From the NCBI GenBank assembly GCA_948567375.1, contig OX419756.1:32316333-32380332 (forward strand): a stretch of 64,000 nt of DNA, given 5' to 3'. This DNA comes from Lunularia cruciata (Eukaryota > Streptophyta > Marchantiopsida > Lunulariales > Lunulariaceae). This document shows positions 15,939-64,000 of the stretch, piece after piece (the first letter of the stretch is position 1; every line of letters begins with the position of its first letter). Below the pieces are notes generated by a model. It was not told the DNA's origin, did no database searches, and worked only from the letters and a program-made list of their open reading frames with translations. The position numbers were made by a program, and so were the translations under genes.

Positions 15939-16082
15939 ATTGACCCGGCCCCCGTTTCACAGCATGCTCAGAACTCGATCCAGGTCCTGCAGCAAATCTA
16001 CTTACGAAAGATCAGACTATCTGTTGCTCTTCTTTCACCACGCTTAGCTCCTCTCGAACCATCAATACACCAGTTTGCGATC

Positions 16083-16520
16083 ATGTCTTACACGATCCAC
16101 GTGAGGGTCATCCAGACCAATCCCGAGGACTGGTATAGCATCGTCGAGAAGACGGTCTGGCACTACGGCAATGGAGGCACCTGGGCTAAAGTCGATGGCC
16201 AGCAGACGCTTACTATGGGTGCCAGTGGCACTTCCGGCATGCTGCGCTTCCGGAACCCGCGGGGCGACTCGTTTCTAGTGGCACTCGGCATCCACAACTA
16301 CAAGCGTTGGTGCGACATTGTGGCGGATGCCGCCCCGAAAGACACCGGCGTACTGATCCATCCGACGTACTACGGTGAAGGGGAGAACAATCAGATGCTG
16401 TGGAAGCAGCTTGCGCATCTGGAGAAGAAGACATCCAAAGGTGTGCAGCTCAAGGTGGACTACTACAAGGAGGATGACCACACCCTTTACGCAACTGTCA
16501 CCATTCTCAACAACAAATAG
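16083..16520 (+). CDS. Fungal-type fruit-body lectin (Agaricus bisporus agglutinin family)
   Basis: A 145-residue protein, the usual length for this family (about 140-145). It starts MSYTIHVRVIQTNP, as fungal members start M-T/S-YTI-R-V-QT, and keeps the blocks GNGGTW, LTMGASGTSGMLRF and HNYKRWCDIV, then YY and a beta-rich end (TLYATVTILNN). In the fungal protein, the SG after GT and the D and I of CDI contribute to binding Gal-GalNAc-type and GlcNAc-type sugars; those residues are present here. No signal peptide or membrane segment is seen, so it is expected to be cytosolic and probably oligomeric. Homologues are known from liverworts, where a defence role is suspected. The gene is intronless. 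An in-frame ATG lies upstream at 15867 but precedes the TATA box, and family alignment fixes the start at 16083. Confidence 0.93.
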   Translation: MSYTIHVRVIQTNPEDWYSIVEKTVWHYGNGGTWAKVDGQQTLTMGASGTSGMLRFRNPRGDSFLVALGIHNYKRWCDIVADAAPKDTGVLIHPTYYGEGENNQMLWKQLAHLEKKTSKGVQLKVDYYKEDDHTLYATVTILNNK

Positions 16521-33041: not shown

Positions 33042-33871
33042 GGTATGCTTATATACATTGTTACACAACATACATTGTTGTCAACATCATATACTAAAGA
33101 ATCACAACTCACACATAGGTAATATACAAAATCTAGAATGTCATAATAATCAGTTCATTCTTCCACTTGAATCACACTCAAATCAGATATGTACTTGATC
33201 TAATCCTTCTTCACTCAACAATCTACTAACAATGGGGCACTGATTACAATCAAGTCACACCCAATCTAGCTAAGAGACTCCTCTTTGAATGTTAGCATAG
33301 CATCAAGTATCCCTATGTTGAGCAATTGTGAAGTTCTTAAAGACCATTGGTATCACTCTCCAAAAGATCTCTGCCCATTGAGAGCATGTACTCACCATAC
33401 GTCTAGATCATCCAACCCATAGCATCTTGAACTACCATAGCATCTTGAACAATGGTTGTAGGTAAATTTGGATCTTGTACATAGACTAAAAAATAAGCAA
33501 GTAAGGATGTTAAGGAGGCTTTTTGGATAAACCAATAGCTCATGGCCAACCAAGGTAATTGGAGATCTCAATCTCCCAAGTGCCCTTGATGAAAACCATA
33601 TTTATGCAATCCTCTCTTCAATATCTAAACCACTCTTTTGCTAAGCCATCTGCCTCAAGGTGATCTTAGGAGGTAGTACAATGATCAATCAAGGCCTTTT
33701 CAGAAAAGACCTCCCAACATACACTCAAAACCTCAACTAGTGCACCAAAATTATTAAGAACCGAATCCATGAATGAGTAAACCGTCTCTTGATTGGACTT
33801 GTTAAGAAGTGCAACCAACTCAATCCACTTGGAGAAGTGCTTCACCATAACCAAAACATACCGATGGTATT
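33042..33871 (-). mobile_element. Old family-1 fragment: terminal repeat blocks joined to integrase part
   Basis: From low to high coordinates this shows the short terminal block (about 33042-33146), part of the long terminal block (33147-33285), then integrase sequence (33288-33871) matching 37790-38390. The long-then-short block order at the 3' end is the same as in the element at 36551. At 33871 a giant LTR begins. The integrase sequence picks up again at 46047, so the fragment is one part of a copy that was later split. It is strongly decayed. Confidence 0.75.
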
Positions 33872-36546: not shown

Positions 36547-36550
36547 TACA
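36547..36550. other. Target duplication TACA, left
   Basis: TACA here and at 44910-44913 brackets the family-1 element exactly. With one copy set aside, the flanks fit other giant LTR copies at this place. Confidence 0.75.
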
Positions 36551-36656
36551 TGTCGTGCATATATACATCGCTACACAACATACATCGCTGTCAACATCAT
36601 ACACTATAAAAGCACAACTCACACATAAGTCATACATGGACTCTAAAGTGCCACAA
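36551..36656 (-). repeat. Family-1 short terminal block, outer copy
   Basis: 106 bp, on the minus strand ending GCACGACA at the outer 3' end of the element. It differs at 3 positions from the copy at 37108-37213. It follows the long block directly. Confidence 0.85.
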
Positions 36657-37105
36657 TAATCAGATTGCTTAACACTTTCAACTCAACTCAACTCAGATCA
36701 GTACTTGATCTGTCACTCTATAAACTGCCAACAACTGGGCACTGATTACAGTCAAGCCACACCCACTCAAGCATAGAGAATCCAAGTGACGCTCGCCGGC
36801 CTCTGTCCACCATAGCTAGGAACTCGAAGGCTCAACATCAGAGAAGTGAGCTCTCTGGAGCTCACTTCGAAACTATACCCCCTGGACTCAAGCTAGCCCT
36901 GAAACCCTAACGGTCCCGTTGACGGCACACTCGACGGTGCAAATGGTGCAAAGTGACGGTGGGCCCCACCGTGAAGTCAGTACCCCAAACACGAAATCTA
37001 ACCGTCGGAAAGTAGTCCTTGAGAAACAGCTAGAATAACTCTAACTACCATCACTGGAACTTCAGTGTCTGAGCATCTAGATGCGGAACTACAAATGGCG
37101 TGACA
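36657..37105 (-). repeat. Family-1 long terminal block, 3' copy
   Basis: 449 bp, minus strand, starting TGTCACGCC and ending CTGATTA. It matches 44457-44909 (5' copy) with about 4% differences and one 5-bp step in a CAACT microsatellite. It also matches 58351-58797. It contains TCTATAAACTG-type AT sequence on the plus strand but no clear promoter could be fixed. Confidence 0.88.
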
Positions 37106-37107
37106 AC

Positions 37108-37213
37108 TGTCGTGCGTATATACATCGCTACACAACATACATCGCTGTCAACATCATACACTATAGAAGCACAACTCACACATAAGTCATACATAGACTC
37201 TAAAGTGCCACAA
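37108..37213 (-). repeat. Family-1 short terminal block, inner copy
   Basis: 106 bp, minus strand, starting TTGTGGCACTTTAG right after the polypurine tract and ending GCACGACA. Two bases (GT on the minus strand) separate it from the long block. This is the start expected of a 3' LTR, yet the element's 5' end does not carry it. Confidence 0.85.
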
Positions 37214-37226
37214 TTGCCCCCCTAGC
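37214..37226 (-). other. Polypurine tract of the family-1 element
   Basis: On the minus strand GCTAGGGGGGCAA precedes the inner short block. A G-run at this place is the expected plus-strand primer. Confidence 0.7.
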
Positions 37227-37384
37227 TGGCGGTTAGGTCCCTCTAACTCTAGATAGCCATCTACTCTAAGTATATGGTATACCCTCTAATGGGCAAAGAT
37301 CAGGAGGCCGGGTGCTATGGAGCCCCATCGTTAGTCGCCTGTCTGCAATCTATACCATATAAAGAATGAACTAGCTATAGGTCA

Positions 37385-37681
37385 AGTACATCTAGGACAT
37401 AACCACTGTCCCTGAGGAACCACCGTGAGGGGAGGAGTCATACATGCCATATGCCATCCTCTCGAACAGCTATCACACACTAACATAGTAGCAGCTCCAC
37501 CAGAAGAGCCACATAACATACACCTCAAGCCTGCATGTACAAGTGCCAAGCTTGGGTCCATAGTACCATCAATGTTTGGGAGGTGGCATGGCGCACAATT
37601 GCGCACATGATCCTTCCAAACAACACCATCACGTCCTTCTAACACAAGGACTCCAGATGGCAAAACCTCGCGCACTCTCAA
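37385..37681 (-). pseudogene. PHD finger after the integrase of the family-1 element (fossil)
   Basis: About 100 residues on the minus strand. The first third (REVLPSGVLVLEGRDGVVW) resembles the small beta domain after the integrase core. The last part is a zinc finger with spacing C-x2-C-x11-C-x2-C-x4-H-x2-C-x14-C-x2-C and a tryptophan two residues before the last CxxC pair, which is the C4HC3 PHD pattern. PHD fingers usually read the histone H3 tail. In this position it could guide integration, as chromodomains do in chromoviruses; that role is inference. A RING finger is less likely because of the spacing and the W. Confidence 0.8.
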
Positions 37682-37756
37682 GATAGTGCGGCCTGTAGAA
37701 ACATCAAGTGTCGTCGGTGCTGTCTGATGTAGATATACATAGTCGCCTGGATGAAA

Positions 37757-39055
37757 TCAACGGATCGAGGGTCTATAACCTCCTCCTCGAATGGTAGCAT
37801 AGCGTAAAGTATCTCTATGCTGAGCAATCGCCAAGTTCTCAAAGGCCATCGGCATCACTCTCCGAAAGATCTCTGCTCGTTGAGAACATGCGCTCATCCA
37901 TACATCGGGGTCATCCAAGTCCAAAACTACAGTAGCATCTTGACAAATGGCTGCAGGTAAATCTGGATCTCGTCCATAGAGTAGAAAGTATGGAGAGAAG
38001 GATGCTAAGGAGGCTTGCCGGCTCAACCGATAGCCCATGGCCAACCAAGGTAACTGGAGATCCCAATCTCCCAAGTGGCCTCTCTGCAAACCATACTTTC
38101 GCAATCCTCTCTTCATCGTCTGAACCACTCGCTCTGCTAAGCCATCTGCCTCAGGGTGATCTCGGGATGTAGTACGATGATCAATCAAAGCCTTGTCACA
38201 CAAGACCTAAAACTCTCCCAAGAACTCTGTACCCTGATCAGTCAAAACCTCAGCTAGTGCACCAAAATGACTAAGAACTCGATCCAGGAACGAGTAAGTT
38301 GTCCCTTCACTAGACTTGTCAGGAAGTGCCACCAACTCAATCCACTTGGAGAAGTGCTCCACCATCACCAAAACATACCGATGATGTCTCACAGTCAGCG
38401 GTAAAGGTCCGGCAAAGTCCAAACTCCAACGGTAACCCAATCCCATGATAGGTAATGGGTGTAACTGTGGTGTAGGAGCATTGAATGATGCTCTAACTCG
38501 GTCACAAACCACACATCTGGCAACAAACTGCTGTACCTTGGTCTGCATACCGCGCCACCAATAATGACTCTGGAGTAAGCTATATGTACGCTTTACTCCA
38601 AAATGTCCTAGCTCCTCATGAGCATGACGGACCAGCTGTGGTCTTTGTGATGGAAGTGGTACTACTCGCACTCTACCATCCTCCCATACACGCAAAAGGT
38701 GTCTACCCTCCAATCTGAACCGTTTGGCTTGCTGAAGAACACGGTCTCTCTCCTTGGCCCCAACTGTGCCACCCACAACACCTGTGCAAAGATAGTCCAT
38801 CACTAAGATATCATCATGAATATCTCGCTGAACTGTACCAATATCTTCACTCTTTGGATCTGTGACCTCAATAACTCCTCTTGTATGCGCTGAGAGAGAT
38901 ACCACCAAAGTCTCTGCAAATATACACAGAAAGGCCGATGCATGCCAACCTGGCACCATCTCCTCATCTGTCTCACCATGCCAACGTGCTCCGGTCTGAT
39001 CCTGCTGGCTGGGACATGGGTTTCTACTCAACCCATCTGCATCACGGTTCACCAC
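37757..39055 (-). pseudogene. Integrase part of the family-1 element (fossil)
   Basis: The N-terminal zinc finger reads H-x3-H (HAHEELGH) then CVVCDR. The core begins with SLDFAGPLP, has a second aspartate at LTDQGTEFLGEF, and the third acidic block region is around DHPEADGLAERVVQ. This is a Ty3/gypsy DDE integrase. The PHD finger follows. The older copies at 1852, 33288, 46047 and 52597 all derive from this region or the RNase H beside it. Confidence 0.88.
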
Positions 39056-39106
39056 TCCAGGTCTGTGAACAACCGTGAAATCATACTCCTGTAAAATCAG
39101 AGCCCA

Positions 39107-39358
39107 TCATGCAAGCTTCCCTGAAAGCTTGTCGGACTCCACCAACCACTTCAGCGGCTGATGATCAGTGATGAGAGTGAAGGGGTTACCAAATAGGTAA
39201 CATCGGAAATGTGCTACTGCCCAAACTGCTGCCAAGCACTCTCCCTCATATGAGCTATACTTTGCCTCCGCTGAATTGTTTGAGCGACTAGCATAGGCCA
39301 CCATAAACTCCTTCTCCTCATCATCATGTTGGGTGAGCACCGCTCCAAGCCCCAACAT
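39107..39358 (-). pseudogene. RNase H part of the family-1 element (fossil)
   Basis: The reading has GAVLTQ near the start, YSSYEGECLAAVWAVAHFR in the middle and LITDHQPLKWL, the typical gypsy RNase H blocks between reverse transcriptase and integrase. The invariant D of ITDH is present. Confidence 0.88.
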
Positions 39359-39376
39359 ACTCCAATCAGTGTGAAC

Positions 39377-40387
39377 CTAAAATGGTCGTCCCCTGATCGG
39401 TCTCCTCAAAATAGGAGCAGATGTCAACCTCTCCTTGAGCTCTACAAAAGCTCTCCCCTGCTCATCTCCCCAACACCACTCCTGTGTAAGCTTGGTCAGC
39501 TTCGTCAAGGCCTTGGCAATGGCACTAAATCCTCTAACATAGCGGCAATAGAAGTTTGCCAACCCAAGGAATGCTCGCACTCTGCTCACATCCGTAGGCC
39601 GAGGAATACGTGCAATAGCCTCCACCTTGGTCTGCTGAACACCAAGTCCTCCGGGGTAGATAGTGTGACCCAAATACTCAACCTGCTCATGGAAGAACCT
39701 ACACTTCCCAGGATGTAGTTTGAGTCCATGAGATCTCAACCTCTCAAACACCTCCAACAACTGTCTCTCATGCTCCTCCACAGTAGTGCTATAAACCAAA
39801 ATGTCATCGATATAGCACCGAGCAAAATCCAATCCAGCTAGGATCCTATCCATGACCCTCTGGAACTCAGCAGGAGCATTCTTTAACCCAAATGGTAAGA
39901 ACCTCCACTGATATAACACATCCTTGCCGTGAGGATCAATAGCCCAAAATGCTGTCTTGGACTTATCCTCCTCCCTGATTGGCAACTGATGATATCCCGC
40001 TTGAAGATCCAAAGTACTGAAGACCTTTGCATGCCCAATCGCATCAAAAATCTCTTCCGGTGTAGGCATGGCATACCGATCAGCCCTGGTCTGTCGGTTG
40101 ATAGGACGGTAATCTCCACACATCCGCCTATCTGTATAGTTGCCATGCATATCCTTCTTGGCTGGCATCACTGTCGCTGATGCATACTCTCCATGTGAAA
40201 TCTCCACCAAACCAGCCTCGAAAAGGTCACTACTCCGGCTCTGAATCAATGTCCTCTCCATATCACTATATCGATAAGGACGTCGAAAAACTGGTGTGTC
40301 GCTAGTCAGCTCAATCTGTATACCAGGTCCCTTCAAAGCACCCAAATCCTTCATACTGAAGGCAAAACAACTCGTGTGACTCCTCAA
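39377..40387 (-). pseudogene. Reverse transcriptase part of the family-1 element (fossil)
   Basis: About 336 residues with the RT signature blocks in order: PAKKD, MCGDYRPINRQT, STLDLQAGYHQLPI, WRFLPFGLKNAP, the catalytic YIDDILVYS and VEYLGH. It belongs to Ty3/gypsy by sequence and by the following RNase H and integrase. It is preceded by the methyltransferase part and a linker. Confidence 0.92.
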
Positions 40388-40495
40388 GAACCTCCAAACC
40401 CTCCGTCTTTCCTCTCCAGTAAGCTTGGGTCCAAGATCTGGCTCCCAAGTATCCTCTATAACTGTAGTAGGAGTGGAAGACGTACTGACTGGCTG

Positions 40496-41698
40496 CTACA
40501 CTGGGCCCTTGGGAGCAATAGTGTCATGCTCCCGACCACTAGAGGTCCCAACCTCTGTGTGAAAACCTCCCTCCACTCTGGCTGCAAGCTCCATACGTCC
40601 TCTGGCTGCATCCCATGTGGACCAAGGGTGTAATCCAAGTAGCCCACGCTCACCTGGATGGACTCCAAGTAGACCACTCTCCCTAGTAGCTACTGGATGT
40701 GTCCCAAGAATACCATGTCCACTTGGTCCATTGCTCCCAGCATGTGCCTGAATCGTCTCAATAGGCACAGGGCTCACAAGTGTCCGAGTGGTGATGCCTA
40801 TCAAGCGCATCCTACGCTGCTCTGCCAAACCAAGGCTCACAATCCAGGTCAAACAGTTCAGGTCCATAGCCTGATCTAACACCTGACGCCTGGATGCCTT
40901 TGACACTGCTGGAACAACGGTAATACCGGTGCAAAAACCCATTGCTCGCTCTCTCTCATCAGCATTGGGCTCCACCAACTGCTGTAACTGTGAGTCCCAA
41001 ACAAGTCCGGGTCCTCCCTCTTGAAAAGCATGAGAGCGTGGGAAACGCATGAGTGTGGGAAATGCAGCTCTAGGCTGTCCAACTAGGTTCACCACTGCCA
41101 TAGGTGACCTATCAGCCACTACCACTGTCTGAGACTGACGCCCAAAATCCAAGATATCATCAACAAGAATGTGGTCCAATCGCTGAATCCCATCATAAGC
41201 ACGCTGTAGAACCTCTCTAGGTAAGAGGTTCGTCCACCAAAGACGAAGACGATGAGCCCGTGATCCCACTCTGGCTGCATCTAAAAATATAGCAGGTCCC
41301 ATCCAAGAATGGACCTGATGTGAATTCGCCACCACTCTAGTGCGAGAATCACCCAGCAAAGGAATGTTCTCCAAAAGGTAAGCTGGAGAAACAGACTGAT
41401 GAACCTGGAGATGTCGTAATATCCGTAACATCTCCCAAAACACACCAGAACGAGGATCCTGAAGACCCAAACCGTGGCTCGCACGTGTATGTCCCTGACA
41501 TGGCCATCCAAAAATCACCAAGTGAATAGGCCCATGTCTCTCTAGGTCATGCGCCCCCAGTAAGGAAATGTCTCCTGGTAAGGCCTTCTGGTAACCTCTG
41601 ACTGCTGACATCGGTAATAACTCCAGATACCGATAGGCCAAGTGTGCCACATGATGTAGAGAGACTTGCCTAGCAGTCTCATCTCTCTCTACATACAA
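40496..41698 (-). pseudogene. DNMT3-like C5 cytosine methyltransferase part of the family-1 element (fossil)
   Basis: About 400 residues. Motifs of C5 cytosine methyltransferases occur in the normal, unpermuted order: motif IV with the catalytic Cys in FGWPCQG (residues 64-69), the ENI of motif VI (110-112), the AHRLR and WWTNL of motif VIII (148-158), ERERAMGF of motif IX (248-255) and RRQVLDQ of motif X (270-276). Motif VIII resembles the AHRARYFWGNL of DNMT3, and RSGVFWEMLRIL resembles the block after DNMT3 motif IV. The first SAM-binding motif was not recognised in this copy. Host enzymes methylate cytosine in DNA; activity here is unproven. After residue 300 a Gly/His-rich linker leads to reverse transcriptase. 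Its place inside a gypsy pol, between gag and RT, is highly unusual. Confidence 0.88.
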
Positions 41699-41988
41699 GT
41701 AAGGGCAGGTACTGCACCCCTACTAGGTGTAGATCCTCTACCACCAACTCTACCACCTCGTCTTCCATGAACTGGAGCTCCTCTACTACCTGTCATAGCA
41801 GCCCTACCACTCCGTAACTCCGGGTGTAGGTCAAAACACCGGTCACTAGTATGACCAAATCTATGGCAATGCTCACACTGCCTCTGTGTTGGCTGTGATG
41901 CACCAGAGGTATCAGGTCCGCTGCCTTGAGTACACTCTCTCCTATGGTGAGGTCCACCACAAGTCCAACAAGCAACACCACCACTCAC
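41689..41988 (-). pseudogene. Zinc-knuckle part of family-1 Gag (fossil)
   Basis: Two knuckles in a row: CWTCGGPHHRREC and CEHCHRFGHTSDRC, the second a perfect C-x2-C-x4-H-x4-C. A Gly/Arg-rich tail (GRRGGRVGGRG) follows. This is the nucleocapsid-like RNA-binding end of a retroelement Gag. The copy at 58351 has the same pair around 61275-61440. Confidence 0.88.
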
Positions 41989-42078
41989 TGGCTGCTACTG
42001 ACCCAAAAATGAGGGTAAGGGTCTAACTCCACTAGGCCCTCCACTCGCTCCATAGGATCTGGGCTATCCACCCTGTCC

Positions 42079-43200
42079 TCAAAAACCAACTGGGCGTGGT
42101 GCACTCTGCTGCACTCTAGAAGAAGTCACAACTGTGGATGAGGTCTCCCTACCAAATCCAGATGTCACCACTCTCTCCTCCACCATGTTGAGCTCAATAC
42201 GCTCAGCCAAACCAAAGACTACTGCCAAAGTGGGCGAAGTAGCCTGCAACAACGTAGCATCACAAACTCTACGTCGCAACTCCCTGTCCAGTATCCCATA
42301 CCAAAACTGGATTGCCTGGGCCTCAGTAACTCCCTGAGTGAAACTAATCAGCCGCCTCATGCGAGTGTATGCCTCGCGTAGGCTCTCTCCAGCCTTCCGC
42401 TGGAACTCCTGCAAGCTCCTCAGCTTGTCAGTCCGCACTCCTTGGTAGTTCTGCCTCAAACATAGGAAGAACTCCACCATGGGGTTAAACCCCGGTACCA
42501 CACCACCTCCTGCAGCGGTACCTCCACTCGTAGTAGCACTATCTCCAGCTAGTGCACCTCCACTAGCTCCACCAACACTACCCGAGCTAGAACTCGTGGG
42601 TACAGCCGATCTACTCCTGGCCACCGAGCCTGAAGTGATGGAGACATAGTGTGGAGACCAATATTGTCTCCATAACTCAATCTCCTCCAAATGAGCTCTC
42701 CTGAACTCATGGTAGTCGTCCATCGGCGGACCCTCCAAGTGCTGAAACAACCCCTTCCATGCCATGAAAGGTGTGAACAAAGTCGGGTTCCGCATCTGCT
42801 GCAGATCACACCAACTATCAAACTCCTGGATGAAGTCATCCAACTCAATGGTACCCACTGTACCAGAGTAACGCCTAGGGCCTTTGGAGGCCCCATAAAT
42901 CTCATCCATGTCCTACAACAACGGTGCGGACACACCAAGTGCACTCTCAACTGAATCAGCTCCTGTGTCGAACTCCAACTCAGAGTCAATCTCCTCCCTC
43001 ACTGGGACCTGAGATACAGGCTGATACCGAGCACCACTCCAAGTAAACCCACTGCGTACTGCAGGGCTAACTCCTCTGGAATCTCCAAAGAACTCCGTCG
43101 TGACCACATAACCACACCAACAAACCGGAACCACCAACTGCAACCGCAAGTCACAACCGCCAGTACCCCTCCAAGTGCCAACACCACCGCGTGCCAACAC
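42079..43200 (-). pseudogene. Gag part of the family-1 element (fossil)
   Basis: The acidic start (EEIDSELEFDTGAD) is followed by IELDDFIQEFDSWCDLQQ and then a Ser/Gly/Ala-rich spacer. The core has FFLCLRQNYQG, LRSLQEFQRKAGESLREAYT and MRRLISFTQG, with the arrangement of a retrotransposon Gag domain. It corresponds to 60093-61139 in the other copy. The family start codon is not certain. Confidence 0.85.
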
Positions 43201-44446
43201 TAACTAAACACCACCCACTAATGTAACTCTACCAAGATAACTACACTAGGGGAAGGGCAACCTGTAACCTGCCATCATAACACGCACTCTCACGGTCTGC
43301 AGGTCATCACTTCCTGCCTCACCGGAGAGAAACAAAGGTAGTCTGACTGGTCATCACTCCAGCCTCACCACCGAGAGCACACCAGAGCACCAACGCTCAA
43401 AAGTCAAGGCACCTCACACAAACGTGGTGCACAAACAGGAAGTAGAGAATGGAGGGGATCCAATCACAAGAAATCTAAATGAAAACCCTCCATCTCATAA
43501 CACAACACGGGACTGACTCTGCCACCATTTGGCATTTGACATAAGAGTAGTTCGTATCTAAGTCCTAAGCTACCAGGATCACCAAGAATGGGATCAAACT
43601 GCCTCTCCTAGCCAAAGCTACATGTGTATAGATAACAGTGGCACAGTCACTATGACAACAAGTGAGGGTGGACCAGTTGGCTAGGGCACCAGTCTAGGAA
43701 CAAGAGATCTAGGGGTCAAACCCTGTTGCGCACAATCTAGCAAGAAAGGCAGATTTTGCCAACCAATGACCAAGATCTACACTAAACTAGCTAGCCTCAC
43801 GCCAGCAAGCTGGCTTGCTGGCCCTTCTAGGCCTTTGTAGCCTCTCATAGCCCACAGCCCTATGCCTCGAAGCCTCTAAATGCCAAATGAGGCCTTTCTT
43901 GTTGCCACTTCGAACCTTCTCCAAAATTAGCGAAACTTCTCCAAATCTGCGAAACTCCTCCAAACTAGCAAAACTTCTCCAAATCTGGCCAAACAGCGAA
44001 ACTCCTCCAATTCTGGCCCAAAAATCTGATGTAAATCTGACGTAAAATCTGACGTAAACCCTAAAGATGGATGTCCGCCAAATCCCCCGCTAGCTTTCCA
44101 CTCGAGCCAAATTGACAAAACGGGTTTTTCCAAATCACAATTTCATGAGAAGAGCTTTCCAACTCCACCTTCAATTTCACTTTCTGAGCCCAATTCGCAG
44201 CAAATTGGTCCTGCCTTCACCTCCTGAGCTCAAAATCACAACACTGCTCGAAAATTGCTTCTTCTTTGCTCAAAATTTGGCCAGCGCTTCCGCACACCGT
44301 CCGCCTAACTGCCAAATTTGCATCAACTACACGAGCTTCTGCACACTAGGGAAACACAGAACCTGAATCGAGCTACCACGATCCACCGAGCTTGGAGATA
44401 CCACCAACACTCAATGTTCTTGCACCCAATTTCCCCCTGACTTCAC
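43201..44446 (-). other. 5' leader of the family-1 element
   Basis: About 1.25 kb of untranslated leader, conserved in the copy at 58811-60092. On the plus strand it shows short CTCCAAA and AAACT-rich repeats around 43920-44060. It contains the tRNA-like sequence listed separately. No long frame. Confidence 0.65.
43662..43733 (+). other. tRNA-like sequence in the family-1 leader (antisense to the element)
   Basis: 72 nt, from GTGAGGG to GCGCAC. It contains an A-box-like GGACCAGTTGGCTAGGG and a B-box-like GGGTCAAACCC at tRNA spacing. A D-arm with AGTTGG loop and an AGGG/CCCT T-arm can be drawn. The acceptor stem pairs poorly, so this is a tRNA-derived relic, not a working tRNA. The same sequence lies in the other copy at 59533-59604. 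Confidence 0.55.
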
Positions 44447-44459
44447 TTCTCTGATGTAA
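44447..44459 (-). other. Primer-binding-site-like sequence of the family-1 element
   Basis: TACATCAGAGAAG on the minus strand follows the 5' long block. It shares ATCAGAG with the usual initiator-Met tRNA complement (TGGTATCAGAGC) but lacks TGG, so the call is tentative. Confidence 0.35.
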
Positions 44460-44909
44460 TCAGATTGCTTAACACTTTCAACTCAACTCAACTCAACTCA
44501 GATCAGTACTTGATCTGTCACTCTATAAACTGCCAACAACTAGGCATTGATTACAATCAAGCCACACCCACTCAAGCATAGAGAATCCAGGTGACGCTCG
44601 CCGGCCTCTGTCCACCATAGCCAGGAACTCGAAGGCTCAACATCAGAGAAGTGAGCTCTCTGGAGCTCACTTCGAAACTATACCCCTGGACTCGAGCTAG
44701 CCCTGAAACCCTTACGGTCCCGTTGACGGCACACTCGACGGTGCAAACGGTGCAAAGTGACGGTGGGCCCCACCGTGAAGTCAGTACCCCGAACACAAAA
44801 TCTAACCGTCGAAAAGTAGTCCCTGAGAAACAGCTTGAATAACTTTAACTACCATCACTGGAACTCCAGTGTCCGAGCATCTAGATGCGGAACTACAAAT
44901 GGCATGACA
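44457..44909 (-). repeat. Family-1 long terminal block, 5' copy
   Basis: 453 bp, minus strand, beginning TGTCATGCC at the outer 5' end of the element and ending at the primer-site-like sequence. It is the counterpart of 36657-37105. No short block is attached on either side here. Confidence 0.88.
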
Positions 44910-46046
44910 TACAAAGTAATGAGGAGGTGCTTTAATTCTCCAACTCCCAATCATCTACCTTGTTTGTTGGTGAACACATCTTGCCCAATTTACCCTTCCT
45001 CCTATGAATAGCTAATGAAAGAACACCTCCTAGTGTTCTATTACATACCTGGTATGCTTAGGTTTTAGCTTTGCCATTAGAGCCTCACCGGGTCTTTGTA
45101 GGTATCCACTTTGTGACCATTCTTTGTGCAAGGAGACTTGAAGGAATTTCCCACTTCTACAATTTTCTCCATCAAATTACCTTTACCATAGAAAGTGGCT
45201 TCATCTAGTTCCCCAACCTCTCTTCCTAACACAAGTCTCTAATCCAACTCCATCCATCGATTCCCCTTTGCTTTCGAGCCATCTGCGTAATTGCTTGCAA
45301 CAATTTCTGCCATGAACTATGGAAAACTCAAATTCCAATTCCAATTCCAGACCAAAAAAGAGATACAAAGCCTACTAAGGTCTTCAATCCTTGCAATCAT
45401 CTCCAATCTCCAAATTACTGGATTCATCCCCGCAAGTGAAGGAATTTTCTTACCGCTCTTCATTAGTATCATGTGCTTACAAATTCAAGGATGTTGGAAC
45501 ATTATCCCCTCTCCTAGATGCATGATTCTAACTCCCTCAAGCCTTTGGAAAATTTTACTCTTGTATGGCCTCATAGTTCACATTCCTTTGGGATGACTAT
45601 TAAGAGGAACATGATATTTACTTGACATTCAAAATTCACACTACAAAGTCTTAATCTTATACCATTTTGCTGCATAGTCATTCTTTAGTTGATCTTCAAT
45701 GGACACACATATTCTTTATGGATGTCTCATGTCACTCTCAACTTTCATCTCCACCTGAAGTAGACATTTTTCTTTCCCCATACTTTCCTGATTTGCTAAG
45801 CACAAGGCAAAGTTGTTATAGTTTCTTTGGGTAGGATGATCACACTGATGCAAAGTAACTTTACTTTGGGTCCACCACTTCGTAAGTCTGACCTGAGTCC
45901 TTCTTCCTCTAGCACAAACTTGACTTCTTCTAATCTAACCCAAACACATGATTCTTCTTCTTTCTTTGCCATTTGGCTTCAATTCGGTTACAACTATATA
46001 CTTCTTCTTTAAAACACATCAAAAACAAAAAAATGTTGGTACTTCA

Positions 46047-46162
46047 ATATCTCACAATCAACAATAAAGGTCCAACAAAGTCCAAATATAGTAACCCAAT
46101 CCCATGATAGGAAATGGGTGTAACTGAGGCATAGTAGCATTAGAAGATGCTCTCTAACTTGG
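46047..46162 (-). mobile_element. Old family-1 integrase piece between two giant LTRs
   Basis: The 116 bp match 38388-38500 of the family-1 element (CCCAATCCCATGATAGG, AATGGGTGTAACTG). It continues the fragment that stops at 33871 and is continued at 52597. It ends with CTTGG, the target duplication of the next LTR. Confidence 0.8.
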
Positions 46163-47882
46163 TGTGACAACCTAGCAAGTATCACATTTGCAAAAGTTGA
46201 TGAGTAATTGTTTGTTCCCATAGAGATATTGTTCAAGAATGTTCAAATACAAAGTGAAGTAGAACAATGTAGTTCTTCTTGACTTTGTCTTTAATCTCTT
46301 GGGTAGAAACAACACTCAAAAGAGAGTAACAAGTGCTCAATAGCAACTCTTGTCACAATTACAAGTCATGCAAAATCACAATTCTTCAGATCCTCTCCAA
46401 ATTGATGTTGATTGTGATGATTTAATTGATATGAATAAGGGTATTTCACCATGAAATGACTTCACCTTGGAATTTCATTCCATCCATCTATTGAAGGTAC
46501 AACTTCTTCAATCAAAATTACTTCTCATCAGTCTCTTGCCTTGCACTCACAAATGATTGATACTATTAATACTACAATTCTTCACAAATCCATCAAGGCA
46601 TCTTTTTTATTGCATTTCACTCAAGATCAAACACATAGAGGGTAATTGGAGCTGTAGAATCTAACATCTAACACACTTTGAATTGCAATCCAAATGTCTC
46701 TACACACTCACAAACACAAACAAAAGAATGATACTTGGAATTAAGCAAAAATGACAAGCATTGAGTTCAATGCTATGCTTTATGCAACTTCAATAGTGAA
46801 TATAACACATTTCAAATGACTGCTTTAAAAAGACAAAGCACTCAGCAATTACAAGAACTATCTAAACTACTTCAACTACTTACAAATCTTCAAATGCAAA
46901 TCATTAGATTTCCTATTTGTAGCACTTCAAATCTGAAAATTGTTACACTACTCGGATCCAAGTACTACCTCAACTTTGGCTTCTACACCCAAATTACCTA
47001 CAAGTTCCTCTTTCACTCTAGGTTCATCTAATAGGTACATCTTCCTCTACTATAGTCTCTTCTTCAGTCTAGACTAAGATTGACGTCATTTATATACTAA
47101 CTACATTATCCTTCTCTACTCTTACTTCTTTAGTGAACTTGGGTAACTCACCCAAAGTCACCTGCACTCTGACCTTGACTACTTTGGGTCAATTTACTAC
47201 ACTTTTGCTTAGTCTACAGCAAATTTTATCTAATTCTGACCTAACAAAATCTAATCTAAGACAAACATCATCTCCCACTTCAATAATCTTTCTCTCTACT
47301 CTATTCCTAAGGCAAATTAACAATTAATCCAGATCAACATCCTTTGCCTTTCATTTTCAAGTCTCATGCACCAACAATTTGAGTTCATGTAGGTAAGACT
47401 CATCAAATTGCACTTTGGCTCTAGTGTTGAGCCACAAATTGCAATTTGGCTATAGACTTCAAGCATCACCTTCAATTTGATGACAATCTCCTCCATTGAT
47501 CCCAATACTTCCTTTTGTGAGATTGTGAGATTTGCTCATCTTGAGTCACCTCCTTCAACTTATCCCAAAGCACCTTCAACTCCTCAACATGCTTTGCCTC
47601 TCTTCAACCTGGTGAACAACTTGAGCTTCTGCACTTTTGATCAGATCTTGCAACCTTTCTTCTTCATGCCCTCAACTTGCAAGTTCTCATTGCCATGCTT
47701 GATTCTTCTCCATGGCAATTGATCTCAACTCCTCCAATGCCTACTCATGTATTAGTGTTTTGGTCTTAGAGTACATCACTTCTAGTTGAGCATCATCAAA
47801 TGTTGGCTTCAATTTCTTGAACAATGCCTTCTGCTCCTTCAGCTCTTCCTTTTGTCATTCCAAGAAACCTCTATGCTTCTCA

Positions 47883-50878: not shown

Positions 50879-52596
50879 TAACAGTTCTTGAGATATGAAG
50901 AGGCAAATATGAAGAGGTGCATTGTCATTTTGGATCTGCAAGTTAGAAAAGTTGTTGTAGAACAGTATAGTTGTTAGAACTGTCAATTATTTCACTATTT
51001 AAGAGTGGCATTTGCAGTCTTATGTTGTTCAGTGCTCATAATTTTTGAGAATAGATAAAGCAAAGTGCTATGAAGCAGTGCTTGTTGCTTGAGCTTGATT
51101 CCAAGTATCAACTTTATGTCTATGTTTGTGAATGTTTGAAGAAATTCGAAGTGTAAGTTAGTGTGCTTGTTGGATGTTGGATTCCACAACCTTGATCTTC
51201 ATTCTGTGTGTTTGATCCTGAGTGAAGTGCAATCAAAGCAATGCCTTGAGAGACCTGAGAGGAATTGTAGTGTTGGTAGTATTTTTCATTTTTGAGTGCA
51301 GTGCAAGGTTGATGTGAAGCAATTTTGATCGAGGAAGTTGTGCCTTCAGTGGAAGGGTAGAACACAATTTTGAGGTGAAGTCATTTTGCAATGAAGTGCC
51401 GCTTTTGGGAGAGCCTAAATCATCACAATCAAGATTGTTTGGAAAGATTTGTTGGAGTTGTGATTAAGGAGTGTGAAATTTGTGACAAGATTGCGAGTCA
51501 ATGCTTGTTACTCTCTTTTGAGTGTGGTTTCTACCTAAGAGATTAAAGACGCAACCAAGAAGAATTGCAAGTGTTATTGTTTGACTTTGTATTTGGAAAT
51601 TTTGGACTCGTATCTCTGCGGGAACGAACTTTACTTACCCGATTACCGCAAAAGTGATATTTGCCGGGTTGTCACAAAACTCTCTTACAACTCTTTTAAA
51701 CTTTGTTGGAAAATCAGGTTTCTACCTTACACCCATTCTTTGTGTGAGGTGCATTGAAACTATTGTTCAACTCCTCAATTTCCTATACAAGGCCACACTT
51801 GTGATTGAAGGTGATTCTTGTTGAATCTCCTACATCTCTATCTGACATAAGTCTCCAATCCAACTCAATCCATCAAGCTAGATTTCCTATCTTCACTTCT
51901 GCCTTGAGATTGTATATGCCATGTACCCTTGAAAACTCAAGTTCTAGTTCCAAGCAAAAACATGATCTAAAGTTGGCTCAAGACTTTGATCCTAGCTAGC
52001 ATATCTAACCTTCAAATTGTAGGATCTAAACCACAAGTGCTTGAACCTATTAAGTACCCTTCATTGGTATTGTGCATTCACTTGCTAATGGTTTTTCACA
52101 AATCAAGCTTGGGATTTAGCTTGTGATTCTAATTCTCCCATAACAACTCTTCAAAGGGATAGAATATCGGTTCAACATTGTAAATTCCCCTTGATGAAGT
52201 CTCAATTTTATAATACTCTGATTTGCAGTCATTCTTTAGTTAAGCCTTAATCAAAACTCATACCTACTACATGACTTACTCTTCTCACTCTCAAATTTAT
52301 CCTCACACAAAGTTGCCATTTTTGTTGAATGTACCTTCTTGGTTGGTACGGCCTGAGTTAAAGCTATTAAGGTGTCTTTGATGGGGTTGATCATTCCAAT
52401 GCAAAGTAACTTTACTTTGGGTCTACTGCCTTCCAATATGATCCAATTCCTTCTTCCTCTAACACAAAGTTGACTTCTTTGAGTTGGATCCAAACCCACA
52501 ATTCTTCTTTTCTTTCTTCCATTTGGCTTCAATTTGGCTTCAAAAAAACACTTTTCTTAAAACTAACAAAATTTTTAAAAAAATACAAGTATCACA

Positions 52597-58350: not shown

Positions 58351-58797
58351 TGTCACGCCATTTGTAGTGCCGCATCTAGATGCTCGGATACTAGAGTTCC
58401 AGTGATAGTAGTTAAAGTTATTTCAGCAGTATCTCAGAGACTACTTTCCGATGGTTAGATTTTGTGTTCAGGGTACTTACTTCACGGTGGGGCCCACCAT
58501 CACTTTGCACCGTTTGCACCGTCGTGTGTGCCGTCAGTGGGACCGTTAGGGTTTCAAAGCTAGCTCAAGTCCAAGGGGTATAGTTTCAAAGTGAGCTCCA
58601 GAGAGCTCACTTCTCTAATGTTGAGCCTTCGAGTTCCTAGCTATGGTGGACAGAGGCCGCCGAGCATCACCTGGATTCTCTATGCTTGAGTGGGTGTGGC
58701 TTGACTATAATCAGTGCCTAGTTGTTGGCAGTTTATAGAGTGATAGATTAAGTACTGATCTGAGTTGAGTTGAGTTGAGAGTGGTAAGCAATCTGAT
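58351..58797 (+). repeat. Long terminal block of the second family-1 element
   Basis: It starts TGTCACGCCATTTGTAG and ends AATCTGATTA, followed by CATCAGAGAAG as in the other copy. It matches 44457-44909 with more differences than the two blocks of that element show between themselves. Confidence 0.85.
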
Positions 58798-58810
58798 TAC
58801 ATCAGAGAAG

Positions 58811-60092
58811 TGAAGTGAGGTGGAAATCGGGTGCAGGAACTGTGAGTGTTGGTGGTATCTCCAAGCTCGGTGGATCATTGGTAGCTTGATTCAAGTTCAG
58901 TGTTTCCCTAGTGTGTAGAAGCTCAATCGATTGATGTAGATTTGGCAGTTAGGCAGACGGTGTGCGGAAGCGCTGGCCAAATTTTGAGCAAAGAAGGAGC
59001 AAATTTCGAGCAGTGTTGTGATTTTGAGCTCAAGAGGTGAAGGTAGGACCAATTTTCCGTGAGTTGGGCTCAGAAAGTCAAATTGAAGGTGGAGTTGGGA
59101 AGCTCTTCTCATGAATTTGTGATTTGGAAAAACCCGTGTTGTAAATTTGGCTCGAGTGGAAAGTTAGCGAGGGATTAGGCGGACAGCCAACTTTAGGGTT
59201 TACTTCAGATTTTGGTTGGGATTAACATCAGATTTTGGCCAGATTTGGAGGAGTTTTCGCTGTTTGGCTAGATTTGGAGGAGTTTTGCTAGTTTGGAGGA
59301 CTTTTGCAGATTTGGAGAAGTTTTGCCAATTTTGGAGGACATTCGAAGTGGCAACATGAAAAGCCTCATTTGGGCGTTTAGAGGCTTCGAGGCATAAGGC
59401 TGTGGGTTATGAGAGGCTATGAAGGCCTAAAAGGGCCAAAAAGGCCAGCAAGCCAACTTGCTGGCATGAGGCTAGCTAGTTTAGAGTAGATGTTGGTCAT
59501 TGGTTGGCAAAATCTACCTTTCTTGCTAGATTGTGCGCAATAGGGTTTGACCCCTAGATCTCTTGTTCCTAGAGTGGTGCCCTAGCCAACTGGTCCACCC
59601 TCACTTGTTGTCATAGTGATTGTGCCATTGTTATCTATACATATGTAACTTTGGCTAAGAGAGGCAGTTTGATCGCATTCTTGGTGACCCTGGTAGCTTA
59701 GGACTTAGATACCAACTTCTCTTATGTCAAATGCCAAATGGTGGCAGAGTCAGTCTCGTGTTGTGTTATGAGATGGAGTGTTTTTGTTTAGATTTCTTGT
59801 GATTGGACCCCCTCCATTCTCTGCTTCCTGTTTGTGCACCACGTTTGTGTGAGGTGCCCTGACTTTTGAGCATTGGTGCTCTGGTGTGCTCTCGGTGGTG
59901 GGCTGGAGTGATGACCAGTTAGACTACCTTTGTTTCTCTCCGATGAGGCAAGAAGTGATGACCTGCAGACCGTGAGAGTGTGTGTTATGATGGCAGGTTA
60001 TAGGTTGCACTTTCTCCTAGTGCAGTTATCTCGGTTAGAGTTACATTAGTGGGTGGTGCTTAGTCGGTATTGGCACTTGGTGGTGTTGGCAC
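58811..60092 (+). other. 5' leader of the second family-1 element
   Basis: Counterpart of 43201-44446. It has GGAGGAGTTTT-type repeats around 59260-59340 and the tRNA-like sequence. No long frame. Confidence 0.65.
59533..59604 (-). other. tRNA-like sequence in the second family-1 leader
   Basis: Minus strand, 72 nt, the same as 43662-43733 with few differences. Here an anticodon-like stem CTCT/AGAG with a 7-base loop AGGAACA can also be drawn, together with the D-arm and the AGGG/CCCT T-arm. The acceptor stem is poor and position 33 is not T. Confidence 0.55.
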
Positions 60093-61139
60093 TTGGTGGG
60101 GCACTTGCGGTTGCAGTTGGTGGTTCGGGTTTGCTGTTGTGGTTACTTTGTCACGACGGAGTTCTTTGGAGATTCCAGAGGAGTTAGCCCTGTAGTACGC
60201 AGTGGGTTTACTCGGAGTGGTGCTCGGTATCAGCCTATATCTCAGGTCCCAATGAGGGAGGAGATTGACTCGGAGTTGGAGTTTGACACAGGAGCTGATT
60301 CCATTGAGAGTGCACTTGGTGTGTCTGCACCATTGTTGTGGGACATGGACGAGATTTATGAGGCCTCCAAAGGCCCTAGGCGTTACTCTAGTACAATGGG
60401 TACCATTGAGTTGGATGACTTCATCCAAGAGTTTGATAGTTGGTGTGATCTGCAGCAGATGCGGAACCCGACTTTGTTCACACCTTTCATGGCATGGAAG
60501 GGGTTGTTTCAACACTTGGATGGTCCACCGGATGACTACCATGAGTTCAGGAGAGCTCATTTATAGGAGATTGAGTTATGGAGACAATATTGGTCTCCAC
60601 ACTATGTTTCCATCACTTTAGGCTCGGTGGCCAGGAGTAGATCGGCTGTACCTACGAGTTCTAGCTCGAGTAGTGTGGGTGGAGCTAGTGGAGGTGCACT
60701 AGCTGGAGATAGTGCTACTACGAGTGGAGGTACCGCTGCAAGAGGTGGTGTGGTACCGGGGTTTAACCCCATGGTAGAGTTCTTCTTGTGTTTGAGGCAA
60801 AACTACCAGGGAGTGCGGACTGACAAGCTGAGGAGCTTGCAGGAGTGGAAGGCTGGAGAGAGCCTACGAGAGGCATACACTCGCATGAGGCGTCTAATCA
60901 GTTTCACTCAAGGAGTTATTGAGGCCCAGGCAGTCCAATTTTGGTATGGGATACTGGACAAGGAGTTGCAACGTGGAGTTCATGATGCTACGTTGTTGCA
61001 GGCTACTTTGCCCACTTTGGCAGTAGTCTTTGGTTTGGCTGAGCGTATTGAGCTCAACATGGTGGAGGAGAGAGTGGTGACATCTGGATTTGGTAGAGAG
61101 ACCTCATCCACGGCTGTGACTTCTTCTAGAGTGCAGTAG
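60093..61139 (+). pseudogene. Gag part of the second family-1 element (fossil)
   Basis: Same domain as at 42079-43200: EEIDSELEFDTGADS at the start, then IELDDFIQEFDSWCDLQQ, the Ser/Gly-rich spacer, FFLCLRQNYQG and AYTRMRRLISFTQG. The core of about 300 residues is easily followed between the two copies. Confidence 0.85.
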
Positions 61140-61259
61140 AGTGCACCACGCCCAATTGGTTTTTGTGGACAAGGTAGACAGCCCAGATCCTATGGAGCGA
61201 GTGGAGGGCCTAGTGGAGTTAGACCCTTACCCTCATTTTTGGGTCAGCAGCAGCTAGTG

Positions 61260-61600
61260 AGTGGTGGTGTTGCTTGTTGTACTTGTGGTGGACCTCACCA
61301 TCAAAGAGAGTGTACTCAGGGCAGCAGACCTGATACCTCTGGTGCATCTCAACTAGCACAGAGGTAGTGTGAGCACTACCACAAATTTGGTCACACTAGT
61401 GACCGGTGTTTTGACCTACACCCGGAGTTACGGAGTGGTAGGGCTGCTATGGCAGGTAGTAGAGGAGCTCCAATTCATGGAGGCCGAGGTAGTAGAGGTG
61501 GTGGTAGAGGATCTACACCTAGTAGGGGTGCAATACCTGCCCTTACTTCTGACACAGCTATGGCTACTCGGATTGAGCAGTTGGAGTAGATATTGGCTAG
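61260..61600 (+). pseudogene. Zinc-knuckle part of the second family-1 Gag (fossil)
   Basis: CCTCGG-type and FGHTSDRC blocks as at 41689-41988, followed by a Gly-rich tail and PALTSDTAMATRIEQLE, which leads toward the protease region. Decayed. Confidence 0.65.
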
Positions 61601-62520
61601 TATGGCTATTGCTCAGAGGAGATCAGATTCGGGTGCTGAGGCTTCCACCTCATATGATGGTGATAGAGATGCTTTGGACTTCATGTGCAGAGCAGCTCAG
61701 GTGGATGCATTTGCAGCAGTGACTAAGAGTGCAGTACATGTTCCAGAGCCTAGAGGAGCATCAGTGGAGTTGGACCCACAGAGAGGAGAGGTTGGGAGAT
61801 AGGTTAGACTTCCCCAGTCTTTCATGCTCTCTAAGGCATTGCAGACGACATCCATAGTTCCTAGACGTCCTGGTGCAAGTGTGGTAGGTGGTGATGGAGT
61901 ACATGATGGACTACTTGCTAGTCAGCCACATGCTACTACAGAGACTAAGTCTAGCATGATGTTAGGGGCGGCTCAGTTGATTATGCGGCATCCTTTGTTT
62001 TCAGCCAGTGACATGTTCACATTGGGAGTTGACCCAACCCCACTATTCCGGTTGGCTGCCACGTTGTGTGAGAGTAGGGATGGTGCAGTTCCGACTACTA
62101 GAGCAGAGGTGGTTGGTAGTAGAGCTGACTTGGTTGAGGAGCATGGGATCCGTTCAGCGACTAGTGGTTTATGGCAGGCAATAGCGGCTAGACTGGAGGA
62201 GTTGCCAGCTAGACCGGCCTTTGAGAGAGCGCGGTTTACACTTGGTGTTGTCCTATTGGATAACCAAAGGGGGATCTTTTGTTTGGTGGGACCTTCAAGG
62301 AAGGTCTATACACCACAGAGAGTCTTGTTAGACTCTGGTGCGCAGCCCCTTATGTTGGGGAAAGCTGCAGTTGTTGGTCTGGAGTTACGGAAGACCGATG
62401 TGGAGAGGTGTCCATTTCAGATCCAGACATCTCTTGGTGGTGGTTCGACATAGTACATCACACGTGGAGAGCTTGTTGTCCAGGTTCAGCCTGGTCATCC
62501 GACTGATAGCTCGGTGGTGA
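61593..62520 (+). pseudogene. Protease part of the second family-1 element (fossil)
   Basis: After a linker (about 61593-62200) the reading has VLLDSGAQPLMLGKAAVVGL near 62320-62380. DSGA is the catalytic triad block of retroviral-type aspartic proteases, and the following hydrophobic run fits. This part is not recognisable in the copy at 36551. Confidence 0.72.
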
Positions 62521-62579
62521 GAGCTCAGGCTATTGCAACGATAGTTGAGTTCTCGGTGGTGAGAGCTTCTCTAGTCTCC

Positions 62580-63470
62580 AAAAGGTTTCTCTAGCTCCTT
62601 TGGTGGGTGATTCTCGCACTAGAGTGGTGGCGAGTACACATCAAGTCCATTCTTGGATGGGACTTGCTATATTGTTAGATGCAGCCAGAGTGGGATCACG
62701 GGCTCATCGTCTTTGTCTATGATGGACAAACCTCTTACCCAGAGAGGTTCTACAACGTGCTTATGATGGGATTCAGCGACTGGACCACATTCTTGTTGAT
62801 GATATCTTGGATGTTTGGGCATCAGTCTCAAATAGTGGTAGTGGCTGATAGGTCACCTATGGCAATGGTGAACCTAGTTGGACAGCCTAGAGTTGTATTT
62901 CCCACACTCATGAGTTTCCCAGGCTTGTATGCTTTTTGAGAGGGAGGACCTGGACTTGTTTGGACCTCACAGTTACAGTAGTTGGTGGAGCCCAATGCTA
63001 ATGAGAGAGAGCGGGCGATGGGTTTCCGCACCGATATTACCGCTGTTCCAATAGTGTTAGAGGCATCCAGGCGTCAAGTGTTAGGTCAGGCTATGGACCT
63101 GAACTGTTTGACCTGGATTGTGAGCCTTGGCTTGGTAGAGCAGCGTAGGATGCGCTTGATAGGCATCACCACTCGGACACTTGTGAGCCCTATGCCTATC
63201 GAGACAATTCAAGCACATGCTAGGGGCGATAGACTGAGTGGACATGGTATTCTTGGGACACATCCAATAGCTACTAGGGAGAGTGGTCTACTTGGAGTCC
63301 ATCCAGGTGAGCGTGGGCTACTTGGATTACACCCTTGGTCCACATGGGATGCAACTAGAAGATGTGTGGAGCTTGCAGCCAGAGTGGAAGGAGTTTTTCA
63401 GTCAGAGGTTGGGACCTCTAGTGGTCGGGAGCTTGACACTATTGCTCCCAAGGGCCCAGTGTAGAAGTTA
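62580..63470 (+). pseudogene. Rear half of the methyltransferase part and linker, second family-1 element (fossil)
   Basis: It matches the DNMT3-like region of the other copy from motif VIII onward: VVVADRSPMAMVNLVGQP, then the motif IX block NERERAMGF near 63005 and motif X RRQVLGQAMDL near 63070, then the linker with GLLGVHP and GLLGLHP. The motif IV block with the catalytic Cys was not recognised here. Confidence 0.78.
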
Positions 63471-63559
63471 GTCAGTACGTCTTCCACTCCTACTACAGTT
63501 ACATAGGATACTTGGGAGCCAGATCTTGGACCCAAGCTTACTGGAGAAGAAAGACGGAG

Positions 63560-64000
63560 GGTTTAGAGGTTCTTGAGGAGTCACACAAGTTGTTTTGCCT
63601 TCAATATGAAGGATTTGGGTGCTCTGAAGGGATCTGGTATACAAATTGAGTTGACTAGCGACACACCAATTTTCAGACGTCCTTATTGATATAGTGAGAT
63701 GGAGAGGATATTGATTCAGAGCTGGAGTGGTGACCTTTTTCAAGCTGGTTTGGTGGAGATTTCACATGGAGAGTATGCATCAGCGACAGTGATGCCAGCC
63801 AAGAAGGATATGCATGGCAACTATATAGATAGGCAGATGTGTGGAGATTACCATCCTATCAACCGACAGACTAGGGCTGATTGGTATGCCATGCCTACAC
63901 CGGAGGAGATTTTTGATGCGATTGGGCATGCAAAGGTCTTCAATACTTTGGATCTTTGAGCGGGATATCATCAGTTGCAGATCAGGGAGGAGGATAAGTC
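63560..64000 (+). pseudogene. Reverse transcriptase start of the second family-1 element (fossil, cut by window)
   Basis: The reading matches the first half of the RT part at 39377-40387: FAFNMKDLGALKG, VEISHGEYASATVMPAKKD, MCGDYHPINRQT and AKVFNTLDL. The catalytic YIDD block would lie past the window end. Confidence 0.85.

Follow-up and report, generated by a model that had tools for sequence, protein, structure and literature searches.

The window, a stretch of 64,000 nucleotides from Lunularia cruciata, contains a complete but defective retroelement with a Gypsy-type Pol and split direct repeats (copy 1), which carries a DNMT3-like cytosine methyltransferase domain between its Gag and Pol coding parts. 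Its limits are given by repeats detected by self-BLAST, by a 5' end in common with a second copy in the window (copy 2) and by the target-site duplication TGTA on both sides. The features of the two copies are listed below in the direction of their transcription; L001 is a diverged relative on a separate contig, P numbers denote database proteins, and the sampled copies are 20 further genomic copies of the same family.

36551..44909, minus strand: retroelement copy 1
44910..44913, no strand: target-site duplication TGTA, 5' side
44457..44909, minus strand: repeat A1, 5' terminus TGTC..., 95% identical to 36657-37105
42079..42912, minus strand: Gag ORF (PF03732, E=0.0034, below cutoff; tblastn match to L001 Gag)
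41932..41970, minus strand: CCHC zinc knuckle CWTCGGPHHRREC, present once
40499..41719, minus strand: DNMT3-like cytosine methyltransferase domain with a deletion of motif I (PF00145, E=4.1e-6; 61% identical to P0001 across 90% of the query)
40490..40498, minus strand: in-frame TAG CAG CCA at the methyltransferase/Pol junction, matching the UAG-CAR-YYA leaky-stop consensus and identical in 20/20 sampled copies
39377..40495, minus strand: reverse transcriptase, followed by the beginning of RNase H (PF00078, 1.4e-32)
38207..39106, minus strand: integrase, H2C2 and rve parts (PF17921, 8.3e-19; PF00665, 1.2e-9)
37388..37522, minus strand: C-terminal PHD finger of Pol (recognised in the window by its motif; PF00628 in L001 Pol and P0112)
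37216..37227, minus strand: polypurine-like tract AGCTAGGGGGGC, directly before B1
37108..37214, minus strand: repeat B1, 97% identical to 36551-36657
37106..37107, minus strand: two bases separating B1 and A2, centre of a near-palindromic joint (GT in this copy; most sampled copies have GC)
36657..37105, minus strand: repeat A2 (self-BLAST)
36551..36657, minus strand: repeat B2, 3' terminus ...GACA (self-BLAST)
36547..36550, no strand: target-site duplication TGTA, 3' side
58351..64000, plus strand: copy 2, cut by the window end (A1 at 58351-58799, Gag from about 60345, methyltransferase pieces at 62596-63461, start of the reverse transcriptase)
61803-62453, plus strand: ORF of copy 2 with the protease motif LDSGAQ

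The methyltransferase frame of copy 1 (40496-41719, minus strand) encodes 407 amino acids, of which residues 49-128 match PF00145 with 26.9 bits, above the gathering score of 22. Its translation contains, in the normal order, stretches that we take to be motifs IV (GWPCQG), VI (LENI), VIII (AHRLRLWWTNL), IX (ERERAMGF) and X (LDQAMDLN). A sequence-only reading of this DNA had proposed a DNMT3-like domain lodged between the Gag knuckle and the reverse transcriptase of a single element. The PF00145 search it suggested returned a significant match, and the order of domains is as described, since the knuckle lies upstream and the reverse transcriptase downstream on the same strand. Copy 1 itself is broken: its protease is deleted, its Pol contains four in-frame stops (64% identity with the Pol of L001 across an alignment of 1,033 columns), and its methyltransferase ORF begins with YLYVERD, immediately past motif I, so that its set of C5 methyltransferase motifs is incomplete. 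Copy 2 is deleted elsewhere than copy 1, and its ORF with the protease motif, searched alone, gave no Pfam match.

Older, decayed Pol pieces of related elements, 33-61% identical to L001 Pol at the protein level, are found at 1850-2559, 33276-33863, 46091-46213 and 52595-53926. The region 5440-7706 (minus strand) belongs to a distinct Gypsy-type element, whose reverse transcriptase is about 23% identical to that of L001 and within which no methyltransferase match was found. Two ORFs probably represent host genes, one at 15699-16520 (plus strand) that resembles fungal fruit-body-type lectins (PF07367, 6.6e-50) and one at 12212-12733 (plus strand) that resembles it and appears lectin-like by eye.

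Genomic copies and the stop between methyltransferase and Pol

A search of the genome (566 Mb in 74 contigs; 102 of 14,775 first-look candidates scored, best matches only) revealed at least 102 matches, comprising copy 1 and 101 others at 92-94% identity, and among these best matches 63 of 102, copy 1 counted, are free of stops across the matched part. The survey of the source genome, likewise proposed in the sequence-only reading, thus rules out a capture by copy 1 alone. The 20 sampled copies were those ranking next after copy 1 by methyltransferase similarity, each taken as two stretches, and because of this choice they lean towards well-kept copies. Their median pairwise difference in the methyltransferase region is 0.9-2.4%, and A1 and A2 have diverged by 0.4-2.2% in the 14 copies in which both could be aligned, compared with 3.8% in copy 1. 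The family has therefore been active recently, and copy 1 is older. The motif I that copy 1 has lost reads FGGISTG in 19 of the 20 copies and FGGISIG in the remaining one; LENV or LENI is present in all 20 and WPCQG in 19. The ORF is free of stops from residue -435 to -100 in 16/20 copies. The first frame is open over 1,428 codons in three copies, and Pol, scanned from +149, is open to +3114 in three others; none of the 20 combines the two.

The methyltransferase frame is closed by the TAG of TAG CAG CCA in all sampled copies, and Pol continues beyond it without a shift of frame. Since the copies differ by only about 1-2%, this identity counts as a single inheritance. The only diverged instance outside the sampled family is L001, which has TAG CAA TCA at the same site and thus differs from the window family at two of the six bases after the stop, both times inside the consensus. 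UAG-CAR-YYA is described as a consensus for efficient readthrough (PMC3542737), and TAG is followed by CARYYA in only 8 of the 2043 TAGs found on both strands of the window. We conclude from these sequences that Pol is probably reached by readthrough of a leaky UAG. Alternatively, the stop could be bypassed by reinitiation or by a spliced or separate Pol mRNA, with the match to CARYYA being incidental. The motif is indeed found in just two diverged instances, and copy 2 deviates from it by one base (TAG AAG TTA at 63462). However, Pol lies in phase with the methyltransferase frame and is uninterrupted between +149 and +3114 in three of the sampled copies, and the differences between L001 and the family stay within the consensus against the low background frequency, making such a bypass unlikely. 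Among the relatives, 14 database proteins of 1,252-1,451 amino acids (P0121-P0129, P0131-P0134 and P0136), known from the protein alone, end shortly past the methyltransferase, and in P0144 and P0149 the methyltransferase runs into the reverse transcriptase without a stop. For the present lineage, we infer that Gag, protease and the enzyme would be produced together, with Pol being the less abundant product.

Class, origin and relatives of the methyltransferase

Among the matches listed, the solved C5 methyltransferase closest to the element enzymes is DNMT3. P0002, a relative that retains the entire domain and whose fold is confidently predicted (pLDDT 90.3, pTM 0.90), matched DNMT3A with 6.1e-12 and a DRM with 1.2e-8 in the PDB, and a profile of relatives with 44 rows ranked DNMT3A first (1.8e-23), ahead of DRM (3.8e-11), HhaI (1.4e-7) and DNMT2 (3.9e-5); none of the 59 matches listed for this profile was a DNMT1 or CMT. 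This ranking disfavours an origin from DNMT1, CMT, DNMT2 or a bacterial enzyme. PF00145 also matches the methyltransferase of L001 (6.8e-12), and the catalytic residues are near-invariant across distant relatives. The element enzymes thus resemble the solved animal enzymes DNMT3A, DNMT3B and DNMT3C as well as plant DNMT3 in giving the best profile match by many orders of magnitude, in motif order and in the short spacing of motifs VIII and IX. At motif IV, human DNMT3A has PCN, whereas the element enzyme has PCQ. Unlike animal and plant DNMT3, the element enzyme is embedded in a retroelement polyprotein, and no PWWP or ADD family was listed for ORF1 of L001 at E<=0.1. Overall, the sequence data support the assignment of a DNMT3-class domain to a Gypsy-type element.

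The sequence-only reading had named a DNMT3-type host enzyme as the source. Searching with human DNMT3A, we identified the DNMT3 of L. cruciata at C7:31989103-31990166, within a gene (C7:31988500-31990400) in which an intron separates the part with motif IV from the part with motif VI. This enzyme has the same PCQ at motif IV as the element enzymes, as might be expected if the family had recently captured it by chance, an event without general meaning. In the tree, however, it and human DNMT3A form a group with support of 100/100, apart from the retroelement enzymes, leaving recent capture from this host unsupported, and elements of various bryophytes and algae carry similar enzymes. Within the limits of a comparison with a single human and a single host DNMT3, we therefore reject recent capture, which we regard as extremely improbable, whereas descent from a DNMT3-type gene further back in time is still likely. 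When set against the references, which are few and on long branches, the retroelement enzymes as one clade gave p-AU values of 0.78 and 0.31.

L001, deposited as part of a cyanobacterial MAG, is a contig of 9,285 bases whose terminal 127 bases are the same at both ends, and comprises a Gag-protease-methyltransferase frame and a Pol frame, both devoid of internal stops; it shares 49% identity with the window copy in the methyltransferase and 64% in Pol. It evidently represents eukaryotic contamination, as P0038 (Obscuribacterales) and P0226 (Minisyncoccia) also seem to do. It was the only one of seven confirmed loci from the search of genome contigs that belongs to the family; the remaining loci, six in number and found in Streptomyces and Saccharothrix, were rejected as weak matches over parts of the domain. 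Two scans of viral contigs returned no relatives. In the protein searches (best 120 of 133, 37 of 37 and best 120 of 176 matches, with 8,000 scored candidates each), the closest named relatives among the matches listed came from Sphagnum and liverworts, and no Klebsormidium names appeared among these matches.

A domain scan of 276 proteins (274 from the database and the two ORFs of L001) distinguished two main layouts. The first (layout A), with Marchantia, Calypogeia and Sphagnum among its members, is represented by protease-methyltransferase proteins (35), by two proteins continuing into the reverse transcriptase, by three with methyltransferase and reverse transcriptase and by one with methyltransferase, reverse transcriptase, RNase H and integrase. 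The second, with the order reverse transcriptase-RNase H-methyltransferase-integrase-PHD (77 proteins), includes the chlorophytes Haematococcus lacustris and Monoraphidium neglectum. A further 109 proteins contain the methyltransferase alone, and the rest show parts of these layouts. P0157 from Closterium has knuckles, a protease and a partial methyltransferase, P0036 from Riccia is a fragment with methyltransferase and reverse transcriptase sequence, and P0140 from Marchantia polymorpha (Mp_4g09160) has a Gag-protease-methyltransferase frame. The sequence-only reading had considered the capture of such enzymes rare; given that Marchantia, Calypogeia, Riccia and Sphagnum all have relatives among the database proteins and that the second layout occurs in Haematococcus and Monoraphidium, this estimate is not supported, and the underlying observation is right but understated.

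In the methyltransferase trees, the second layout forms one well supported set, including P0102, whose domain order is partly known. One of these trees places 26 of 30 layout-A rows in a single set, with P0097, P0119, P0144 and P0149 outside, and in the tree with the host DNMT3 added, layout A is not one set; forcing it into one clade was not rejected (p-AU 0.50 and 0.71). In the reverse transcriptase tree, three reverse transcriptases of the first layout form one set amid those of the second. Either a single capture followed by a later move or two captures, one per layout, may account for these trees.

The family shows the Ty3/Gypsy traits of a Pol with the order reverse transcriptase-RNase H-integrase and a short target duplication of 4 bp, fitting a DDE integrase. 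In both layouts a PHD finger is present, and it ends Pol in L001 (PF00628, 4.3e-10) and in P0112 from Marchantia (4.4e-9). Chromoviruses are Gypsy elements with a chromodomain in their integrase. This domain is located at the C-terminus of the integrase, whereas the Lunularia family has in that place a PHD finger, likewise a domain of the histone-reader type. Chromoviruses are named in PMC6338049, a source that also states that methylase-encoding transposons are absent from land plants, such as tracheophytes; bryophyte protein records, by contrast, do show them.

The nearest published case, compared here by its description only, is KnitGypsy-Dnmt3 of Klebsormidium nitens, which likewise combines Gypsy-type domains and a DNMT3-class enzyme with a DIRS-like repeat arrangement (PMC5890265, Fig. 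4 legend) and whose DNMT is reported to be under purifying selection (de Mendoza et al. 2018, PMC5890265). There, the DNMT lies inside the Pol polyprotein ORF, whereas the methyltransferase frame of the Lunularia family closes at a UAG before Pol in 20/20 sampled copies. The words PHD, protease, Marchantia and moss are absent from the main text of that paper. SymbioDIRS-Dnmt3 of dinoflagellates, which performs de novo CG methylation in yeast (PMC5890265), is similar in its retroelement-borne DNMT3 and split repeats but is a DIRS element with a tyrosine recombinase, unlike the Lunularia family with its DDE integrase and 4-bp target duplications; for the ORFs of L001, DDE integrase domains were listed and no phage-integrase family (tyrosine recombinase). 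Retroelement DNMT3 of streptophytes and dinoflagellates is mentioned in PMC12344493, and the accessible text of PMC6453930 does not treat methylase-encoding transposons. Within the literature covered, beyond which most subscription papers lie, no account of such elements in bryophytes was found. New in comparison with KnitGypsy-Dnmt3 are the placement of the enzyme with Gag ahead of a leaky-type stop, the PHD finger on Pol, the palindromic joint described below and the wide spread among green plants.

Split repeats and the joint within the element

Copy 1 consists of A1 (453 bp), the coding part, B1 (107 bp), two bases, A2 and B2, in line with the family order A-coding-B-GC-A-B, and thus differs from elements with ordinary long terminal repeats at both ends. 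Among the sampled copies, A is present on the 5' side in 18/20 and B-A-B on the 3' side in 15/20, with both in 14/20; one copy (L016/L017) stops after A2, and three have no repeat in the 3' stretch. Two copies (L030/L031 and L046/L047) have 3' ends of the form B-A-B-A-B, and another (L028/L029) has the form A-coding-B, ends past B1 and is flanked by a 4-bp duplication. An exact target duplication of 4 bp is found in 13 of the 15 copies that are readable at both ends (12 of 14 sampled copies plus copy 1), the exceptions being L038/L039 and the nested L042/L043; six sampled copies could not be read at both ends. A polypurine-like tract similar to that of copy 1 precedes B1 in 17/20 sampled copies and in L001.

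The joint between B1 and A2 reads CGACA-GC-TGTCACG in most sampled copies, with GACAGCTGTC forming a perfect palindrome, and ACACGACA-GC-TGTCACGG in L001, so that a palindromic joint is common to L001 and the family. It follows from its sequence that the termini that flank the insertion also sit joined inside the element. The simplest reading of this arrangement would be a circular intermediate. The stretch TGGTGGCAGAGTC, at most a candidate primer-binding site, is located about 0.9 kb past A1, which makes the route of repeat formation uncertain.

It is tempting to speculate that these elements integrate from circular DNA by way of the palindromic GACA-GC-TGTC in their own repeat, with a DNMT3-like enzyme, supplied in amounts similar to those of Gag, methylating the circle before integration. 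We put this forward as a tentative and rather unlikely idea. The joint, shared with the diverged L001, would then be the integrase site, and the copies of the forms A-coding-B and B-A-B-A-B would represent inserted circles or concatemers of differing repeat number. If true, the circular route and the enzyme would belong together, a connection that could explain methyltransferases in DIRS elements as well.

Selection, methylation traces and the role of the enzyme

Relative to L001, pS is saturated across regions (0.74-0.81), whereas pN amounts to 0.34 for the methyltransferase, 0.22 for reverse transcriptase-RNase H, 0.23 for the integrase, 0.33 for the PHD finger and 0.46 for the protease (usable copies of 20: 16, 7, 10, 12 and 11, respectively). 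The exclusion of pieces with stops or other lengths favours low pN values. The pN/pS ratio of the methyltransferase is 0.46 (pS 0.74) and thus above that of reverse transcriptase-RNase H (0.27). By this comparison, the methyltransferase protein is conserved over silent sites that are saturated. Within the family, nonsynonymous and synonymous changes in the methyltransferase stand at 7:11 at sites shared by at least three copies versus 36:24 among singletons, a small difference and a weak test; for integrase-PHD, the corresponding counts (36:14 versus 459:168) show no drop. The Gag and integrase pieces contain many transversions and multi-allele sites, which probably stem from rearranged copies.

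Singleton transitions were more frequent at CHG (62/4,700) and CG (25/2,360) than at CHH (27/13,420) and A/T sites (8/18,420; all as sites times copies). These C-to-T footprints suggest that copies become methylated at CG and CHG after insertion, whichever enzyme acted. Since the CHG footprints point to host CMT, host methylation alone could explain these marks.

We propose that copy 1 is a broken member of a recently active Gypsy-type family whose first ORF encodes Gag, protease and a DNMT3-like methyltransferase, whose Pol (reverse transcriptase-RNase H-integrase-PHD) is expressed through a leaky UAG and whose methyltransferase pre-methylates the DNA of the element, a proposal that we consider about evenly poised between right and wrong. 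According to this model, the enzyme would be made at the level of Gag rather than Pol, released from the polyprotein by the element protease and packaged together with Gag, such that it could methylate newly made element DNA. New copies would then arrive already methylated and would therefore be tolerated by the host, whose enzymes would subsequently keep the mark. That the element may act on its own methylation, as put forward in the sequence-only reading, thus appears plausible.

The position of the enzyme on the Gag side, where it could be abundant, would also suit an activity directed at host DNA, competing elements or viruses, with the domain being kept because it restrains rivals or limits harm to the host. 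An antiviral role of retrotransposon methylases has been proposed (PMC6338049), but nothing in the present data shows action in trans, and we regard this possibility as improbable. The domain might also have ceased to methylate and be kept as a structural or nucleic acid-binding part of the Gag-protease polyprotein. Consistent with such a role, the methyltransferase changes faster than the reverse transcriptase, and the Gypsy enzyme of Klebsormidium displayed no activity in yeast, a result termed inconclusive there (PMC5890265). However, a scaffold would not need catalytic motifs that are near-invariant both in distant relatives and in the sampled copies, so that a loss of activity seems rather doubtful to us.

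As a rule, transposons are on the receiving end of DNA methylation. Here, a large family carries its own DNMT3-like enzyme, seemingly made together with the coat protein. Such a family makes it testable whether an element pre-methylates itself and whether it gains from doing so, and a relative (Mp_4g09160) is carried by the model plant Marchantia polymorpha.
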